Below, piece after piece: positions 11,566-17,914 of a stretch of DNA of 58,696 bases. This DNA comes from an uncultured Comamonas sp. Its GTDB lineage: Bacteria > Pseudomonadota > Gammaproteobacteria > Burkholderiales > Burkholderiaceae_C. Location of the stretch: assembly GCA_902175065.1 (NCBI GenBank), contig CABIIJ010000073.1, forward strand, positions 1 to 58,696. Reading direction: 5' to 3'. The notes under the pieces were generated by a model. It had not been told where the DNA came from, ran no database searches, and saw only the letters and a program-made list of their open reading frames with translations. A program made the position numbers and the translations under genes. Positions within the stretch are counted from its first letter, which is position 1. Each line of letters begins with the position of its first letter.

Positions 11566-12480
11566 ATGAAAATTGAAAATCTGCACGACGTGCAACTGGC
11601 GCTGCACATTGCCCGGCACGGCTCGATCACGGCGGCGGCCCATGCCCTGGAACTGAGTCCCCAGACCGCCAGCGCCGCACTGAAGCGGCTGGAGGGGCAA
11701 TTGGGCACGCGCTTGTTCGAGCGTTCCACCCGCAACGTGCGCCCCACCCCTGCCGGGCAGGGCTGGCTGGGCCAGATGCAGCGCGTGCTGGAGCTGATGG
11801 AGGATGCCGAAGCCCAGCTCGACAGCGAACATGCCGCGCTGCACGGCCCCGTTCGGCTGGCAGCACCGTCCGATCTGGCGCGGCAGGTTCTGCTGCCGCT
11901 GCTGGACGATTTTTTGGCCCAGCACCCCGGCGTACAACTGTCGCTGGCCGTGGGCGACCAGCCGCGCAACGTACTGCACGATGCGGTGGACGTGGCCATC
12001 CGCTATGGCGTGCTGGCCGACTCGCGCCTGGTGGCCCGGCACCTGGCCGATGCCCGGCCGCTGGCCTGCGCCGCGCCCGACTACCTGGCCCGCCACGGCA
12101 CGCCCCGGCATCCGCAGGATCTGCTGCAGCACAACTGCCTGACCTCCCAGCGCAGCGGGCGGCTGCACGCCGTCTGGCGCTTTGAGCGCAATGGCCAGTG
12201 GCAAGAGGTGCGCGTGCAGGGCAACCGCAGTACGGACGATGCCTCCCTGGCCCGCCAATGGGCGGTGGCCGGACATGGCATCGCCCTCAAATCCCACATC
12301 GACCTGCAGGCCGACCTGCGGGCAGGCCGCCTCGTGCCGCTGCTGCCCGGCTGGCGCACGGCCCCCTACCCGCTACACGCCTTGCTGCCCAGCAGCCGCT
12401 TCGTCCCCCGCCGGGTGCGGGCGCTGGTGGAGCATCTGGCCCAGGCGTTGCAGGGGATGGATGGAGTGGCGCTGCCTTGA
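11566..12480 (+). CDS. LysR-family transcriptional regulator
   Basis: 304 residues. A winged helix-turn-helix (about 5-62) contains HGSITAAAHALELSPQTASAALKRLE, and an effector-binding domain (about 90-295) follows. It probably controls the divergent dehydrogenase from the shared gap 11477-11565. The recognition helix and start (MKIENLHDVQLAL) are clear. The inducer cannot be inferred. Confidence 0.88.
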   Translation: MKIENLHDVQLALHIARHGSITAAAHALELSPQTASAALKRLEGQLGTRLFERSTRNVRPTPAGQGWLGQMQRVLELMEDAEAQLDSEHAALHGPVRLAAPSDLARQVLLPLLDDFLAQHPGVQLSLAVGDQPRNVLHDAVDVAIRYGVLADSRLVARHLADARPLACAAPDYLARHGTPRHPQDLLQHNCLTSQRSGRLHAVWRFERNGQWQEVRVQGNRSTDDASLARQWAVAGHGIALKSHIDLQADLRAGRLVPLLPGWRTAPYPLHALLPSSRFVPRRVRALVEHLAQALQGMDGVALP

Positions 12481-12502: not shown

Positions 12503-12578
12503 AGCTTCCACCGCTCTTATTTAAATGGTTTCAAATAACTATGTTTATGAAAACCTTTATTTATATACGGTGGCAGCT
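12503..12578. repeat. AT-rich palindromic repeat between the LysR and WYL genes
   Basis: Left arm AGCTTCCACCGCTCTTATTT, then AAATGGTTTCAAATAA. Right arm (reverse complement) AGCTGCCACCGTATATAAAT, then AAAGGTTTTCATAAA. Same family as 21435-21510. Its right edge contributes the TAG stop of the WYL gene. The foldback could also act as a terminator between the converging genes. Confidence 0.75.
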
Positions 12579-13548
12579 ATGCTTTCAATGTGACCGGCTC
12601 TCTGCGCACCTCGCATACTTCATCCCCAAACCCTAGCAGCCAGCGCGTCAGCAGGATGCTGTCCACCACGGTGGCGGAAATCTCCAGCCAATCCTCATCC
12701 AGCTCCCGCACCTGCTGGTCGGTGGACAAAGGCGTTTCCCGCAGGTGCAGCCCCGCCCCCTGGGTAATACAGAAGGTCAGGCGCACGCGTTCGCCGTCAC
12801 CGAAAGCAAAGCGGCCATCGTGGTCGTACTTCGCCAAATCGAATTCGGGGGGGCGCTGGAAAGTCCGCATGGACACCTCGGCCTTGTGGATGCGATGCAG
12901 GGCCAGGCTGCGCTCGTTGTCAAAGCCCTCGTAACGGCACGCCAGGTACAGGCGCGTACCCTGCTGCGCCAGGCCCAGGGGCATGACCTGCGCCTCGCTG
13001 CATTTGCCCTGGGCATTCTGGTAATCGATGTGCAGCCAGCAGTTGGCGTACAACGCCTCGCTGACGGCATCCAGCACCCCCGGCGCGATTTTGGGCGGCA
13101 GCAGCGGCTGGCTGGTGGCCACCACGCGCACCTTGCGTGGCCATTGGCGCTCCAGGGCTGCGGTGGTGTTGGCATCCAGATTGCGCCGCGCCTGGACGAA
13201 GAAGCCGCGCATGGACTGCATCAGCCGCGCAGGCAGCAGGTTGCGCAAGTGTTCCTCGGCCAGTTGCAGCAGCAGCGATTCCTGCGGGGTAAGGTGGGCC
13301 AGAGTCATGCCCTGGGCACGCTCCAGCCACCGGTAGCCATAGGGTTTGCTGCGCTCGTCACGCTCGATGTCGAAATGCTCGCTGAGGGTTTCAAGCTGGC
13401 GCTGGATGGTGCGCAGGTCACGGTCAAATCCTGCGTCCCGAAGCTGCTGGTGCAGCTCGCCGGCAGTGACTTTGCGCCCGCGTGGAATGCGGCGCAGCAG
13501 TTCGACCATAAGCAGGGCGGTGTCCAGGGTATCGGGGCGTTTGGCCAT
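12577..13548 (-). CDS. WYL-domain transcriptional regulator
   Basis: 323 residues. N-terminal winged HTH (about 1-75: TAGELHQQLRDAGFDRDLRT, then IQRQLETL). A WYL domain (about 145-225) has the core HIDYQNAQGK, then MPLGLAQQGTRLYLACRYEG, and a C-terminal WCX-like region follows. WYL proteins usually bind nucleotide or nucleic-acid ligands and often regulate defence or DNA-damage genes. It starts 42 bp after the tandem-AAA gene on the same strand, so the two probably form an operon in the order AAA then WYL. Its stop (TAG) falls inside the dispersed repeat at 12503-12578. Likely ligand of the CGACA-N5-TGTCG sites; that is inference. Confidence 0.88.
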   Translation of the reverse strand: MAKRPDTLDTALLMVELLRRIPRGRKVTAGELHQQLRDAGFDRDLRTIQRQLETLSEHFDIERDERSKPYGYRWLERAQGMTLAHLTPQESLLLQLAEEHLRNLLPARLMQSMRGFFVQARRNLDANTTAALERQWPRKVRVVATSQPLLPPKIAPGVLDAVSEALYANCWLHIDYQNAQGKCSEAQVMPLGLAQQGTRLYLACRYEGFDNERSLALHRIHKAEVSMRTFQRPPEFDLAKYDHDGRFAFGDGERVRLTFCITQGAGLHLRETPLSTDQQVRELDEDWLEISATVVDSILLTRWLLGFGDEVCEVRREPVTLKA

Positions 13549-13590
13549 ATGCAGCTTCTGTGGTTGGGACAGATGGCGGCAAATTATGGG

Positions 13591-15702
13591 TCAGACAAAA
13601 CCGATGGCGTTTTTGGCCCCTTGCTTGAGCGCACATTCGGCCTCCAGCGCCATCACCAGTGCATCCGTACTCGGCAGAGGGCGAAAACGCTGCTGACGCA
13701 CCACGGCGGCAAAGTCGCCAGGGGTGAGCTGGCGCAGCCGTGCCAGACGGGCTTGCACTGCTGCGCCAGGGGCGCTCAGGCCAAGCTGGGCGCAGTGGCG
13801 TTGCAACAGCGCCCAGGCCTGCTCGGCACGCAAGTAATCCAGCTTCACCTTCAGATCAAAGCGGCGCAGCGCAGCAGCATCCAGCCCATCCATCAGGTTG
13901 GTGCTGGCAATAAGCACGCCCGCAAAGCCCTCCATCTGGGTGAGCATTTCGTTCACCTGGGTCACTTCCCAGCCGTGTTGAGCGCCTCGGCGGTCTTGCA
14001 AGAAACTGTCCACCTCGTCGATCAGCAGCACCGCACCATCGTCCTGCGCTTCGCCGAAGGCGCGGGCGATATTCTTTTCAGCCTGGCCCACGTACATGAA
14101 CAGCAGGTCGGACGCACGGCGTACCAGAAGCGGCTTGTCCAGTTGCTGCGCCAGCCAGCGAGCAAACGCCGTCTTGCCCGTACCGGGCGGGCCGTACAGG
14201 CACAGCCTGGCCCCGCTGCCCATACCCTCCATCTGCTGGGCAATGGCCAGGTTGTCAGCCAGTTGCAGCAAATCGGTATCAGCATGGATAAAGGCGGGGT
14301 CGTACACCTCGGGCAGCCGGTTGGGGTCATGACGCAGCAGCGGACGGTGGCCTTGCGCTTGCAGCGTATGGCTGACCAGTTGCTCAAAGGCGTTGGCGCT
14401 GGCCGTGCAGCCCACTTCGGCCTCAATCACCTGGGCCACGGTGCTGGCACGGGCCACGACGGCAGGGGCCAGGTGCTCGGCCTCGGCCATGTGGGCCAGG
14501 CGGGCAGCATCCAGCAGATTGCCGCAGTGCGCCTGCACGATGCGCTGGCGCTGCTGGCGCGGCGGCACAGGCAGCTCGAACACGATGTCGAAGCGGCGGA
14601 TGAAGGCTGCATCCAGGTCATGCACGCTGTTGGACAGCCACAGCGTGGGAATGGGGTTGCTCTCCAGCGTCCGGTTGATCCAGGCCTTGTGCGACTGGGC
14701 CGGGCTGCGTTTGACGGGGCTTTCGTTGAACACATCCTCCACCTCGTCGAACAGCAGCAAGGCCTTGCGCTGGGCCAGAAAGCTCTGCGCAGCACGCAGG
14801 GCACGCAGGCGGCGTTCGCCGCCGATGGGATCACCCTCCTCGTCTTCACTGACCACCTCGAACAGCTCGCAACCCAGGTCACGCGCCAGCGTGCGGGCCA
14901 GCTCGGTCTTGCCCGTTCCGGGCGCACCATGCACCAGAATGTTCACACCGCTGCGCTGTCCGGCCAGGGCATGGCGCAACCAGGGGCGCATGATGTCCAG
15001 CATGGACTGGATGTGGGCGTAGTCGCTCAGTTGCAGGTGCCCCGGTGCGGCAGGGGCGATCTTGCCGCGCAGCAGGGCAATGGGGTCGGTAATCTCGGAT
15101 GTCAAGCGAGCGGCAAAGGTGTCTGAAAGCAGATCGATTTTTTGTACAAGGTAATCCCTGCCGCTCCTGCCAAGCACCACCAGACCGCTGCGTGCCAGCG
15201 GCCCTTCGTGGTTCAGCGCCTGGCGCATCTGTTCATCAGGCACATCCAGCACCAGCGCCAGGGTCTGCACCACCTGGATAGAGCTGAGCACCTCCAGCAT
15301 ATTTGCCGTCTTTTCAAGCAAAGGCTCGGTGTGCAGGCAAGCGGCAAAGGCCAGAATGCGCACCTCCAACGCATCCAGCCCCACCAGTGCGGCCAGCCGC
15401 TGTACGTTGTCTTGCAACATGGCGGGCAGGGGCGCATCGGCACAGGCCTGTTGCGCCTGCTCCAGCAAATCGAACAACTCGGCCCGCACTGCCCTGGGGG
15501 AGAAAGCCTGTTCTTCTGGGTGAATCCAATGCCCCAGCCCCAGGGCAACGGCCAGGCCATCATGTGCAAGCTCGTCTTTACGCACAAATCTATGCAATCC
15601 CTCCGGCGAGGTAAGCAGGCGCAACATCCACAGGGCAATATGCGGCTCGGGCTTACGGGAGCGACGAGATAGCCCTGATTGACGAGAGTGACGGCGGCTC
15701 AT
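13591..15702 (-). CDS. Tandem AAA+ ATPase of unknown function
   Basis: 703 residues from the ATG at 15702, which has AAGGA 5 bp upstream; in-frame ATGs at 15741 and 15732 lack this. An N-terminal helical region (about 1-235) has no recognised domain. AAA domain 1 has Walker A GAPGTGKT 259-266, Walker B ALLLFDEVED 314-323, sensor N358 and an FIRRFD Arg finger near 369. AAA domain 2 has Walker A GPPGTGKT 504-511, Walker B VLLIDEVD 558-565, STN at 600-602 and ALRRFD at 611-616. Both ATP sites look intact. The layout is CDC48/SpoVK-like but lacks the CDC48 N-domain. Co-directional with the WYL gene; a 15-bp inverted repeat lies 45-59 bp upstream of the start. Confidence 0.85.
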   Translation of the reverse strand: MSRRHSRQSGLSRRSRKPEPHIALWMLRLLTSPEGLHRFVRKDELAHDGLAVALGLGHWIHPEEQAFSPRAVRAELFDLLEQAQQACADAPLPAMLQDNVQRLAALVGLDALEVRILAFAACLHTEPLLEKTANMLEVLSSIQVVQTLALVLDVPDEQMRQALNHEGPLARSGLVVLGRSGRDYLVQKIDLLSDTFAARLTSEITDPIALLRGKIAPAAPGHLQLSDYAHIQSMLDIMRPWLRHALAGQRSGVNILVHGAPGTGKTELARTLARDLGCELFEVVSEDEEGDPIGGERRLRALRAAQSFLAQRKALLLFDEVEDVFNESPVKRSPAQSHKAWINRTLESNPIPTLWLSNSVHDLDAAFIRRFDIVFELPVPPRQQRQRIVQAHCGNLLDAARLAHMAEAEHLAPAVVARASTVAQVIEAEVGCTASANAFEQLVSHTLQAQGHRPLLRHDPNRLPEVYDPAFIHADTDLLQLADNLAIAQQMEGMGSGARLCLYGPPGTGKTAFARWLAQQLDKPLLVRRASDLLFMYVGQAEKNIARAFGEAQDDGAVLLIDEVDSFLQDRRGAQHGWEVTQVNEMLTQMEGFAGVLIASTNLMDGLDAAALRRFDLKVKLDYLRAEQAWALLQRHCAQLGLSAPGAAVQARLARLRQLTPGDFAAVVRQQRFRPLPSTDALVMALEAECALKQGAKNAIGFV

Positions 15703-15746
15703 GCAAATCCTTCTTTTTGAGTAGAAGTTCATTATCTGCATGAGTG

Positions 15747-15761
15747 CGACAGGATGTGTCG
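15747..15761. promoter_or_regulatory. Candidate operator CGACA-N5-TGTCG upstream of the AAA-WYL operon
   Basis: CGACAGGATGTGTCG, perfect 5-bp arms. 12 of 15 positions match the site at 17900-17914 upstream of the FtsZ-like gene. It lies between the AAA gene start (15702) and the HNH gene start (15895). Confidence 0.6.
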
Positions 15762-15894
15762 TTTGAGAGATGGATGCCTAAGGTTTGATACCGAGAGCCA
15801 TTTAAATTATGTTAGGCTGTGCAACTTGTGTGGATGCTGTGAAAATCAGCATCCTTATGTTTTACTGAACCAATATGTATAAGGAGTTAATTTT

Positions 15895-16782
15895 ATGAGC
15901 AAGATTTACGATTCCGGGGATGATCTTATCGGAGCTTGCCCCGAATTGAGCCGTGGATTTCTGGCTATCAATATAACGAATAATACACCTGGGGCTCTTG
16001 AATTTAATAAGAAGCTTATTGATAATAATGAGACCGGCAATTGGTTAATTGAGGAAAAGGTGATTTCAAAAGGCTTGCCTGGAAAATATTGCCTAATATT
16101 CTTTGACACCAAAAATAAAAATTTAAAAGAACTACTCTTGGGAAAAATAAATAGTGTAAGGGAAGCGGAGGATAGGCAGAGGTTTGTTATTTCTGTTGAA
16201 GAAAAATGGGATTTAATTGGTCAAACTGAAAAATCTTTTAGCAATTTCTTTAAATCAGATACTTTTTCCAATTTTAGTTCTAATCCTGTATGCGTCTGGC
16301 TGAATATCCTTGACGGATTAAAAAATGATACTGATGCTTTAGAAGATGACTTGTTTAATATTCTCGATGGACAGGAGCATGATAAAAATACAACAGAAAA
16401 ATCGCAGCTTATCATGGGGCGCCTTGGTCAAGGTGATTTTAGAGAAAAAGTTTTGGAGGTATGGGGCGGAAAATGCGCTGTAACTGGCTCAGACCTAAAA
16501 GAAGTCCTTCGTGCATCGCATATCAAACCATGGAAAGACTCGAACGACGAAGAGAGACTGAATCCGTATAATGGAATTCCTCTGGCCGCGACTTTTGATG
16601 CCCTTTTTGATAGAGGCCTTATTTCATTTAATGACAATGGTGACATTAAGATATCCAGATATTTATCCAAGAAAAACCAAAAATCACTTGGAATAAACAA
16701 AGAGGATAAAGTTGAAGGAGGATTTTCTGAAAAATATATACCTTTTCTCAAATACCATCGAAACAATATTTTTAAAAAATAA
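15895..16782 (+). CDS. HNH endonuclease (HNH_2-like), low-GC
   Basis: 295 residues, preceded by a strong AAGGAG. The C-terminal HNH domain (about 178-250) contains CAVTG at 194-198, SHIKPW at 208-213 with the catalytic H209, LNPYNG at 222-227, and DALFDRGLISF at 235-245. This is the HNH_2 pattern of restriction-like nucleases. The N-terminal 170 residues are not recognised; they may be a target-recognition or sensor domain. The gene is visibly AT-rich, far below its GC-rich neighbours, and is flanked by its own terminator, so horizontal acquisition is likely. No methyltransferase partner is nearby, which argues against a classical restriction-modification pair. Confidence 0.82.
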   Translation: MSKIYDSGDDLIGACPELSRGFLAINITNNTPGALEFNKKLIDNNETGNWLIEEKVISKGLPGKYCLIFFDTKNKNLKELLLGKINSVREAEDRQRFVISVEEKWDLIGQTEKSFSNFFKSDTFSNFSSNPVCVWLNILDGLKNDTDALEDDLFNILDGQEHDKNTTEKSQLIMGRLGQGDFREKVLEVWGGKCAVTGSDLKEVLRASHIKPWKDSNDEERLNPYNGIPLAATFDALFDRGLISFNDNGDIKISRYLSKKNQKSLGINKEDKVEGGFSEKYIPFLKYHRNNIFKK

Positions 16783-16812
16783 TTTCTCATAGCAAAGAGT
16801 GTAAGATAGAAA

Positions 16813-16850
16813 AAACGTAGCGACCTTAAAAAAGCCGCTACGTTTATTTT
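16813..16850 (+). terminator. Intrinsic terminator after the HNH gene
   Basis: Stem AAACGTAGCG / CGCTACGTTT (16813-16822, 16836-16845) with a 13-nt loop, followed by ATTTTT. Confidence 0.7.
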
Positions 16851-16973
16851 TGTTCTGTATTATGAAAAACCAGATATTTTCACAAAACCCACTTTACGCG
16901 GTCCTCCAAAAATATTCCTGAACTTTCTCCAGGTTCTGACTCCATCAACGCAACTAAAAGTCGAATTTTAACT

Positions 16974-17876
16974 TTATCGCTCAGCGAGACTATCCAGCGA
17001 ACCGGTCAGTAGCATATTGACTCGCAGGGTATCGCCTAAACTTGCGTAGTTTTGCGCTATAAAAATTACCGACGCATCGATGGATATGTTTTTAAGCAAG
17101 CTGTCTAGAACCATCCGCGTTTCGCGTAACGATGGGAACTTGGGCGCACTGTGGACTGATATTAAGACGTTGCGCACCATGCTCAGGTCTCTACCAGCCA
17201 GATAGGGGTGGGCCATCATTTTTGCCCCGATTTTTTCGGCTTTATCCAGACCACTGGTTTGCACACTAACCCAGATGGCATTGCCTGCATCGCGTAGCGA
17301 GCTGGTGATATCTTCGATATTGAAACCCGACGTAGTGTTTTCTCTCAGCAAGAGCGCCATATCCTCCAGCACCTGCTGCAACCAATCGACTGCTTCGGCA
17401 GTTCCTTCAGGAGTATTGGGGACGCGCATCACGGCATCCAGATGCGTTCTTAATGCTTGCAAGGCATTTTCACTGCGCCGTTGCTGAACGCTGTCAGCAC
17501 CAGCCACAGGTGAAAGACTTACGCATAGCGTGTGCATGCCAAAACCGGTTTCCCGCACCTGCTCTGCCAGGGCCAGGACAGCATCGGTGTCTTCTTCGCA
17601 CTCTTGCTGGACAAGCAAGATCAAGAGTCCACGTTTGTTCCATGCCTGCTCCCATAGCGGGGCTTCATTGACCAGCAGGTGGATATTGTTCTCACGCAAC
17701 TGCGTCAAGAACGCAAGGGCACTGGGGCCGATAGGGAGCAGGGCGACGGGCAAGGAGGATGAGGGAAAAGAGCGCCCTGCCAGCCAGGCACAAAGGCTTT
17801 CATGCGACAGCACAGGCTGGCGGGCACACGGATACAGCGGATCGGTACGGTCAGGGGAAATGGTCGAGGTGGTCAT
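16974..17876 (-). CDS. Divergent FtsZ/tubulin-superfamily-like protein without the GTPase signature
   Basis: 300 residues from the ATG at 17876 (MTTSTISPDR); an upstream in-frame start at 18017 runs into the next promoter region. Residues about 185-292 follow the FtsZ C-terminal domain: FNIEDITSSLRDAGNAIW, then GLDKAEKIGAKMMAHPYL, DLSMVRNVLISV, and GDTLRVNMLLTG, matching FtsZ D.LRVTVVATG. RRSENALQALRTHLDAVMRV, then PN, matches the FtsZ RRM...GI.EL...VD..I.IPN segment. The tubulin signature GGGTGTG is absent: the equivalent loop after LLILLV (about 84-89) reads QQECEEDTDA. The T7 loop NxDFAD is shortened to NIED. It probably cannot hydrolyse GTP. A palindromic site lies 24-38 bp upstream. Homology by motif reading only. 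Confidence 0.6.
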   Translation of the reverse strand: MTTSTISPDRTDPLYPCARQPVLSHESLCAWLAGRSFPSSSLPVALLPIGPSALAFLTQLRENNIHLLVNEAPLWEQAWNKRGLLILLVQQECEEDTDAVLALAEQVRETGFGMHTLCVSLSPVAGADSVQQRRSENALQALRTHLDAVMRVPNTPEGTAEAVDWLQQVLEDMALLLRENTTSGFNIEDITSSLRDAGNAIWVSVQTSGLDKAEKIGAKMMAHPYLAGRDLSMVRNVLISVHSAPKFPSLRETRMVLDSLLKNISIDASVIFIAQNYASLGDTLRVNMLLTGSLDSLAER

Positions 17877-17899
17877 GCCTGGGATTATTCGCAGAGGTA

Positions 17900-17914
17900 C
17901 GACACACTGTGTCG
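17900..17914. promoter_or_regulatory. Candidate operator CGACA-N5-TGTCG upstream of the FtsZ-like gene
   Basis: CGACACACTGTGTCG, a perfect 7-1-7 palindrome. It shares arms and spacing with 15747-15761 upstream of the AAA gene. Confidence 0.6.

Follow-up and report, generated by a model that had tools for sequence, protein, structure and literature searches.

The 58,696-nucleotide stretch analysed here (the window), contig CABIIJ010000073.1 of an uncultured Comamonas sp., carries between positions 12577 and 17914 the genes for a WYL regulator, a tandem AAA ATPase, an HNH nuclease and an FtsZ-like protein (Table 1). All four had been named in a preliminary description of this DNA, and all four are present by Pfam, NCBIfam and profile matches. 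The WYL and AAA genes lie on the same strand with a gap of 42 bp, and the FtsZ-like gene is placed upstream of the AAA gene, with the oppositely oriented HNH gene in between. The module, its promoter signature and the association of WYL, AAA and FtsZ-like genes are well supported. To the parts already described, the present analysis adds a DUF2779 nuclease found at related loci, a fixed spacing between operator and −10 box, an altered GTP loop combined with a retained T7 aspartate in the FtsZ-like proteins, a likeness of such proteins to host FtsZ, and N-termini resembling signals for twin-arginine translocation (Tat).

Table 1. Features of the locus and its flanks, in window coordinates
Feature	Position	Strand	Details
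LysR gene	11566-12480	+	
WYL regulator	12577-13548	-	323 amino acids; WYL and WCX, N-terminal helix-turn-helix-like part; Pfam WYL 4e-10
Tandem AAA ATPase	13591-15702	-	703 amino acids; PF00004 1.1e-42, two stretches
Putative AAA-WYL operon promoter	15731-15761	-	operator CGACACATCCTGTCG, 10 nt, GATAAT
HNH_2 nuclease	15895-16782	+	Pfam HNH_2 8e-12; AT-rich DNA
FtsZ-like protein	16974-17876	-	300 amino acids; PF12327 FtsZ_C 2e-6; NCBIfam ftsZ 8e-6
Putative FtsZ-like gene promoter	17884-17914	-	operator CGACACAGTGTGTCG, 10 nt, AATAAT; start codon after 7 more nt
ABC-F-type gene	start ~18078	+	

Both promoters contain the palindrome CGACAN5TGTCG, whose exact form occurs in the whole scanned window only at 15747-15761 and 17900-17914. 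The bare palindrome is merely mildly special, because its five exact sites in the 3.2-Mb genome compare with two for the reversed control; with up to one mismatch allowed, the window holds four sites against 1.8 expected, a number that 12 of 100 shuffles reach. The composite pattern, defined as the operator followed after 10 or 11 nt by DAYRAT, occurs twice in the same genome, at the AAA-WYL and FtsZ-like promoters, and its control does not occur at all. The operator that the two transcription units had been supposed to share is indeed found at both, together with a common 10-nt spacing to the −10 box, and this shared composite promoter makes it plausible that the WYL protein controls the AAA-WYL operon and the FtsZ-like gene, as the preliminary description had proposed.

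A WYL profile search of 84,980 species genomes returned 207 relatives, the best 80 of which were kept as loci (L numbers below; G numbers are genomes, the window's own being G000). Of 73 sites upstream of core or cargo genes, 38 have a −10-like hexamer 10 nt away and 14 have one 11 nt away, and each other offset from 4 to 23 nt yields zero to four hexamers. The strict operator, present in 40 of the 80 loci, is followed by DAYRAT at 10 nt in 19 cases and at 11 nt in two, and the other 26 spacings between 3 and 30 nt give 10 cases in total. A loose operator lies within −300 to +150 of 16 of 31 FtsZ-like open reading frames (ORFs), the background being 3.8%. The 73-site and operator-background counts are slightly redundant, because L072 and L092 seem to come from one contig, as do L079 and L162, and L201/L202 are one duplicated locus. 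The composite pattern is present at the system locus in 11 of 15 genomes chosen as carriers and was not found there in the other four (G118, G728, G675, G529); in G233, WYL is not visible and its contig ends there. Among 19 genomes chosen as non-carriers (15 without a WYL match, four selected for lack of AAA), eight hold scattered background matches.

Gene content ties the FtsZ-like family to the same loci. AAA is encoded in 46 of the 80, DUF2779 in 46, either in 68 and both in 24; because only 40 of the loci reach 19 kb, neighbour counts are lower bounds. An iterated hidden Markov model (HMM) detects 22 FtsZ-like ORFs in 19 of the 80 loci, where chance would supply 0.32 FtsZ genes in 1.28 Mb (assuming one per 4 Mb), and all 22 lie at most 7.6 kb from WYL, AAA or DUF2779, so that the co-occurrence for which the preliminary description had suggested a neighbourhood check is borne out. 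A conservative count is 17 of 80, with L140 and L146 dropped for lack of Pfam support; both are still within the counts of 19, 22, 31 and 32 used here, L105 (weak in Pfam) is retained for its likeness to L110, and L198, likewise devoid of Pfam support, is included on the iterated HMM, its T7 loop and an FtsZ-type C-terminal peptide that it has kept. L153, also drawn in by the iterated HMM, is a 5′-nucleotidase and was removed. The FtsZ-like gene directly follows WYL, at 44-50 bp, in L105, L110 and L113, and L070 (G212) has the order AAA, FtsZ-like, WYL; in L061 (G037), whose WYL protein is 70% identical to that of the window, the series DUF2779, WYL, PD-(D/E)XK, unknown, FtsZ-like and two GmrSD genes stands behind one operator. 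Seven loci have an FtsZ-like gene and no AAA in the 20.9 kb examined (L117, L132, L133, L146, L149, L150, L152); with these, and with AAA in just 46 of 80 loci, the earlier suggestion that the ATPase remodels the FtsZ-like protein finds no support.

WYL is found on plasmids too, in 10 records at E ≤ 1e-40, seven of them 50-65% identical. On a Rhodoferax antarcticus plasmid, a gene for an FtsZ-like protein with a Tat-like N-terminus (WP_162274854.1, annotated as a hypothetical protein) is divergent from genes for AAA, DUF2779, WYL, a hypothetical protein, PLD and a helicase. A Tat-like query finds one plasmid record and the window copy none; the window protein, used alone as a query, found no relative in the scan of the genome collection either, for which the WYL profile was needed.

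An independent test drew on 399 genomes of the window's order, requested at ≥90% completeness. WYL (E ≤ 1e-40) is present in 32, and a general FtsZ profile matches 396, with extra matches in 11; at most five candidate places were scored per genome, so that extra copies may be missed. Second matches in G411 and G659 are ordinary FtsZ, that in G595 is a piece of ordinary FtsZ, and those in G456 and G481, judged from coordinates, are pieces at contig ends; all were excluded, and a third match in G000 is the N-terminal half of the window gene. The divergent set comprises seven genes in six genomes (G000, G496 with two, G727, G458, G448 and G705), and six of the seven lie within ~3 kb of WYL or AAA. 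The possibility raised in the preliminary description, that FtsZ-like genes occur mostly apart from AAA-WYL, is thus not what these genomes contain. The G458 gene adjoins AAA and an operator, and in G448, WYL, FtsZ-like and SIR2 genes are consecutive, the WYL protein there being distant (27%; Pfam WYL 8e-10) and below the cut-off. Divergent FtsZ-like genes occur in 4 of 32 WYL genomes versus 2 of 367 others (Fisher p = 4.6e-4), or in 3 of 31 (p = 0.004) without the window's own genome. The FtsZ profile was built from WYL-locus copies and may favour them, yet it finds ordinary FtsZ nearly everywhere. In G496, the order AAA, FtsZ-like, DUF2779, WYL appears twice, inverted (L201 and L202), with identical FtsZ-like proteins.

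The kinship of the window protein with FtsZ is clear at the level of profiles. Combined with its nearest relative, the L070 copy (33% identical), it aligns with housekeeping FtsZ in hhalign at 98.5% probability (E = 3.6e-15, residues 113-293), all 46 PDB matches of its profile are FtsZ, and it is 27-28% identical to the best housekeeping FtsZ compared. Pfam FtsZ_C is matched by 14 of 14 members of alignment A2 and the Tubulin GTPase domain by 12 of 14; the window copy has no Pfam Tubulin match, and its N-terminal third is assigned by alignment only. A functional GTPase would combine the T4 loop GGGTGTG with the T1 glycines: the window copy has ECEEDTD in T4, with six of seven letters changed, and has mostly lost the T1 glycines. 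Its T7 region (NxDxxD) reads GFNIED, in which only the last aspartate is kept, and it has neither the FtsZ C-terminal peptide nor a Tat-like N-terminus. Among the 21 full-length copies, three have an intact T4 and 18 an altered one (by one letter in two, two letters in four and three or more in 12), and the first T7 aspartate is D in 18 and the last in 19, positions that we take to be D209 and D212 of Escherichia coli FtsZ. In FtsZ, T7 is contributed by the subunit stacked on top. Because the site of GTP hydrolysis forms between subunits, upon their association (PMC8936486, in its accessible part), most FtsZ-like copies, although changed in their own pocket, could still present T7. The altered GTP site, together with partial ORFs in L105 and L116, might instead be taken to mean that WYL islands are hot spots in which decaying copies of host genes are dragged along. 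We regard such mere passage as highly improbable: T7 aspartates are retained while T4 changes, the operator stands at a fixed −10 spacing in the FtsZ-like promoter, and the L070 member of the same family lies between AAA and WYL in another genus.

Several copies have a traceable origin. The L061 copy is 52% identical to same-genus FtsZ and nests in the FtsZ clade of the window's family; the L199 copy matches the FtsZ of its own genome best (43% identity, the runner-up reaching 41%; grouping 92/76), and so does the L198 copy (29%; 6e-20, with 3e-14 for the runner-up); and L114/L119 group (94/89) with the FtsZ of G727, at 57-58% identity, G727 not being their host. Long branches make the remaining placements unsure. 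These relationships point to separate capture of host-like FtsZ in three lineages, perhaps four, and the separate captures favour mimicry of FtsZ over a generic scaffold. The WYL island appears to have acquired altered FtsZ copies on several occasions, and in many of them the GTP pocket is damaged.

Likeness to the FtsZ of the same genome or genus, in L061, L198 and L199, would also suit a decoy that soaks up phage inhibitors of FtsZ, or one under guard whose binding by such inhibitors sets off an effector, while the real FtsZ keeps working. Defence-type neighbours fit this idea too: SIR2-family genes in four of the 80 loci, PLD with helicase in six, three GmrSD families in three each, a 5′-nucleotidase in four, and the SIR2 gene of G448. 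A decoy should, however, keep the inhibitor-binding surface, and many copies, that of the window included, are far from FtsZ; those with Tat-like N-termini would be out of reach; and no phage involvement was found in the viral contigs and phage records searched, with no WYL in the former and, for the FtsZ-like query, 12 weak matches in the latter, 11 of them unannotated and one annotated as FtsZ. On balance a decoy seems improbable. Among the 5′-nucleotidase-family proteins of these loci, that of L142 matches PADLOC PDC-S08.

How the WYL protein might act is suggested by its relatives. With the six copies from other genera in alignment A1, the window protein shares 63-71% identity in five cases and 45% in the remaining one. 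The five top PDB matches of the A1 profile are WYL proteins (E 1.5e-6 to 5.7e-6), titled "WYL domain-containing protein" or "DeoR-family transcriptional regulator" and including 8tp8 and 8tpk, presumably DriD, and PafBC (3e-4) and 7qfz (0.018) follow lower down; a search of PDB with the single window sequence matched none of these WYL structures. DriD of Caulobacter crescentus, as far as the accessible parts of its account go (PMC12340889, a preprint; PMC4211646), is a WYL activator of 327 amino acids that binds the consensus ATACGAC(X)7GTCGTAT at sites that overlap the −35 element and keep a constant distance to the −10 box; it activates didA, bapE, recJ and dnaG, with a division inhibitor and nucleases among its targets, and has a site upstream of its own gene. 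The core of the window operator, CGAC-N7-GTCG, is the same, and at the level of DNA layout the distance to the −10 box is likewise fixed. The two systems differ in that DidA works via FtsN and those parts do not call it a paralogue of FtsZ, nor do they mention tandem AAA or DUF2779, and the window WYL protein is related to DriD only distantly (profile E ~1e-6). DriD-like activation of both promoters by the WYL protein is moderately supported by this layout.

We posit that the locus is a WYL-activated stress or defence island with a mimic of FtsZ among its effectors, probably a poison of division; we put the probability of this reading at roughly 40%. The WYL protein, a distant relative of DriD, is encoded with the tandem AAA protein and elsewhere often also, or instead, with the DUF2779 nuclease, and its putative site stands in for the −35 element, 10 nt from the −10 box. 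Upon DNA damage or phage attack, it may activate both promoters; the signal of DriD is single-stranded DNA. The mimic could then attach to a host FtsZ subunit at that subunit's GTP face and, being unable to properly accept the next subunit, would cap or poison FtsZ filaments, so that division halts as it does with SulA or DidA, through other means. AAA and DUF2779 proteins, in turn, might act on nucleic acids or protein complexes. A fuller version of this scheme, in which bacteria repeatedly recast a second copy of their own FtsZ as a one-sided pseudo-GTPase effector, a dominant-negative FtsZ on demand, of an island on chromosomes and plasmids that WYL activates upon DNA damage or phage attack, and in which one branch became exported through Tat, is doubtful as a whole.

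Some observations weigh against a WYL-activated poison, beginning with the regulation. The bare operator is not enriched over the reversed control in most of 34 genomes; an operator site is informative only if it has the −10 spacing or lies at the system. The −35 matches of these promoters equal background (mean 2.5 versus 2.37), and because they are no worse than that, activation is read from the spacing alone; a WYL repressor at a fixed site is possible. Near the FtsZ_C-only gene of G705, neither WYL nor AAA is present in the 14 kb examined; in L208:6121-9102, it is flanked by a HipA_C gene on one side and a PLD-like gene on the other. In the protein, the first T7 aspartate is N in the window copy and E in its nearest relative. 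GGGTGxG is intact in three of the 21 full-length copies, six more differ by one or two letters, and some GTPase-domain-only copies keep GGGTG. One ORF, L199:543-1805, fuses an FtsK gamma domain with both FtsZ domains, and another, L133:12885-14420, fuses the FtsZ GTPase domain with a 5′-nucleotidase that shares its family with the L142 protein; these fusions suit a scaffold or sensor role.

The FtsZ fold would then serve as a nucleotide-gated platform for the assembly of effectors, unrelated to division, for which the GTPase-domain-only proteins with GGGTG (L117:18500-19180 and L150:7633-8214) and the paired FtsZ-like ORFs of L061, L116, L117 and L124 could also be cited. Given that the GTP loop is changed in most full-length copies, and that best matches to the FtsZ of the same genome or genus would be unexpected, a scaffold of this kind is unlikely, though less so than a decoy. 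A third GTPase-domain-only protein (L061:13033-13605) does not keep GGGTG. In L061 and L117, another FtsZ-like gene, its GTP loop changed, is found close to the GTPase-domain-only one, as though the two sides of the subunit interface had been divided between separate proteins.

Tat-like N-termini weigh against poisoning in a different manner, because copies that bear them would leave cytosolic FtsZ. They are found in 14 of 32 otherwise diverse ORFs, an internal start codon being assumed in some, and consist of the motif M(D/N/K)RRx(F/L) and, after it, a long hydrophobic stretch with few charges. Two of these ORFs belong to L124, and in one of the two the T1, T4 and T7 loops are near-canonical. 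Exported in the folded state, these proteins might act in the periplasm or membrane, for instance by hindering the entry of phages or by working on the septal wall, and the plasmid copy of R. antarcticus is of this type. Yet the curated models recognize few of the 14 (Pfam TAT_signal one, NCBIfam none), and the window protein lacks the signal; action in the envelope thus appears slightly more improbable than a decoy or a scaffold, though less so than simple passage.

Set against known systems, these loci stand farthest from what we know in their FtsZ-derived effector and Tat-like branch, the regulon itself being of the WYL-controlled stress or defence kind. BrxR and CapW are repressors, whereas here the layout of the promoters speaks for activation and FtsZ paralogues are part of the cargo. 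What they share with the present loci, by the accessible parts of their accounts, is a WYL protein beside defence-type genes (PMC9122601, PMC9122588), here on plasmids too. FtsZl1 and FtsZl2 are likewise second FtsZ-superfamily proteins beside housekeeping FtsZ; according to the accessible portion of their description (PMC2875224), they bear the signature GGGTG(S/T)G and coiled-coil or ~300-amino-acid C-terminal parts, and FtsZl1 is found mostly with vWA genes and FtsZl2 without conserved neighbours. Going by these descriptions, the present family is set apart by its usually altered loop and by its WYL, AAA and DUF2779 neighbours. IetA (IteA in NCBIfam) is matched by one AAA module of the window protein (NCBIfam 2e-36, PADLOC 3e-40), but with 125.9 of the 510 bits of the NCBIfam cut-off, and the window protein has two AAA modules. 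SulA and MciZ belong to the toxins and stress-induced proteins whose target is FtsZ; to our knowledge, neither these nor CbtA is an FtsZ paralogue. CbtA, too, acts on FtsZ as a protein of this class (PMC5624674, in its accessible part). No such system was found described among the papers listed by the literature searches, which covered titles and the openings of abstracts and included few subscription papers.

By gene content and a shared promoter, these loci tie a WYL stress switch to the cytokinetic tubulin, and the link between WYL and FtsZ-like genes spans many Proteobacteria and at least one plasmid. Should the mimics act as poisons of FtsZ, they would be genetically encoded, host-matched inhibitors of division, and a DriD-like checkpoint would have arisen with another effector. 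We know of no exported tubulin-superfamily proteins, so that Tat-like copies, if exported, would be the first and would place the superfamily in a compartment unreported for it. The 31-bp promoter signature offers a handle for finding the regulon elsewhere, and the locus may embody an unstudied means of stopping or guarding cell division under stress or phage attack.

The HNH gene, which the preliminary description had counted among the components and described as inserted, is present and is probably a separate insertion, a neighbour only; it is not a conserved part of the system and was rejected as one. We read it as an insertion because its DNA is AT-rich (G+C ~35-41% in the HNH stretch, against ~64% in the AAA gene) and because the 102 loci searched gave, apart from the window itself, a single 50-amino-acid match. 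Its product also matches the PADLOC HNH model (2e-30), and as the gene is divergent from the AAA promoter, the intergenic operator could touch HNH too. The AAA protein, with two Walker A/B sets judged by eye, has VCP-like/Cdc48 ATPases as its nearest solved relatives and is ~50-70% identical to close homologues in its family. A second class of tandem AAA proteins (36-40% identical; L047-L060 and other loci) is widespread in the family, and either class is matched at 1e-20 in 175 of 299 genomes.

The three further palindromes of the genome precede a zinc-ribbon-like small gene and a second WYL gene, both on contig 60, and a MoxR-vWA gene pair on contig 88. Because they have an 11-nt spacing and weaker −10 boxes (TACAGT, TACAGT, TACGTT), they may answer to the second WYL protein. 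Two operator sites lie in the contig-60 region (L068:2936-9570), along with the second WYL gene, matched by Pfam WYL at 5e-11, and other genes without annotation; by eye, its small gene encodes a zinc-ribbon-like membrane protein, without a Pfam match, and relatives of another gene of this operon, f23, adjoin the main WYL gene in L123 and L139. On contig 88 (L069:5201-9160), the palindrome lies 17 bp upstream of a MoxR ATPase ORF (bpMoxR 6e-59), and the next gene encodes a vWA protein for which a weak LRAT-like match was obtained, the two resembling the pair of a ternary system.

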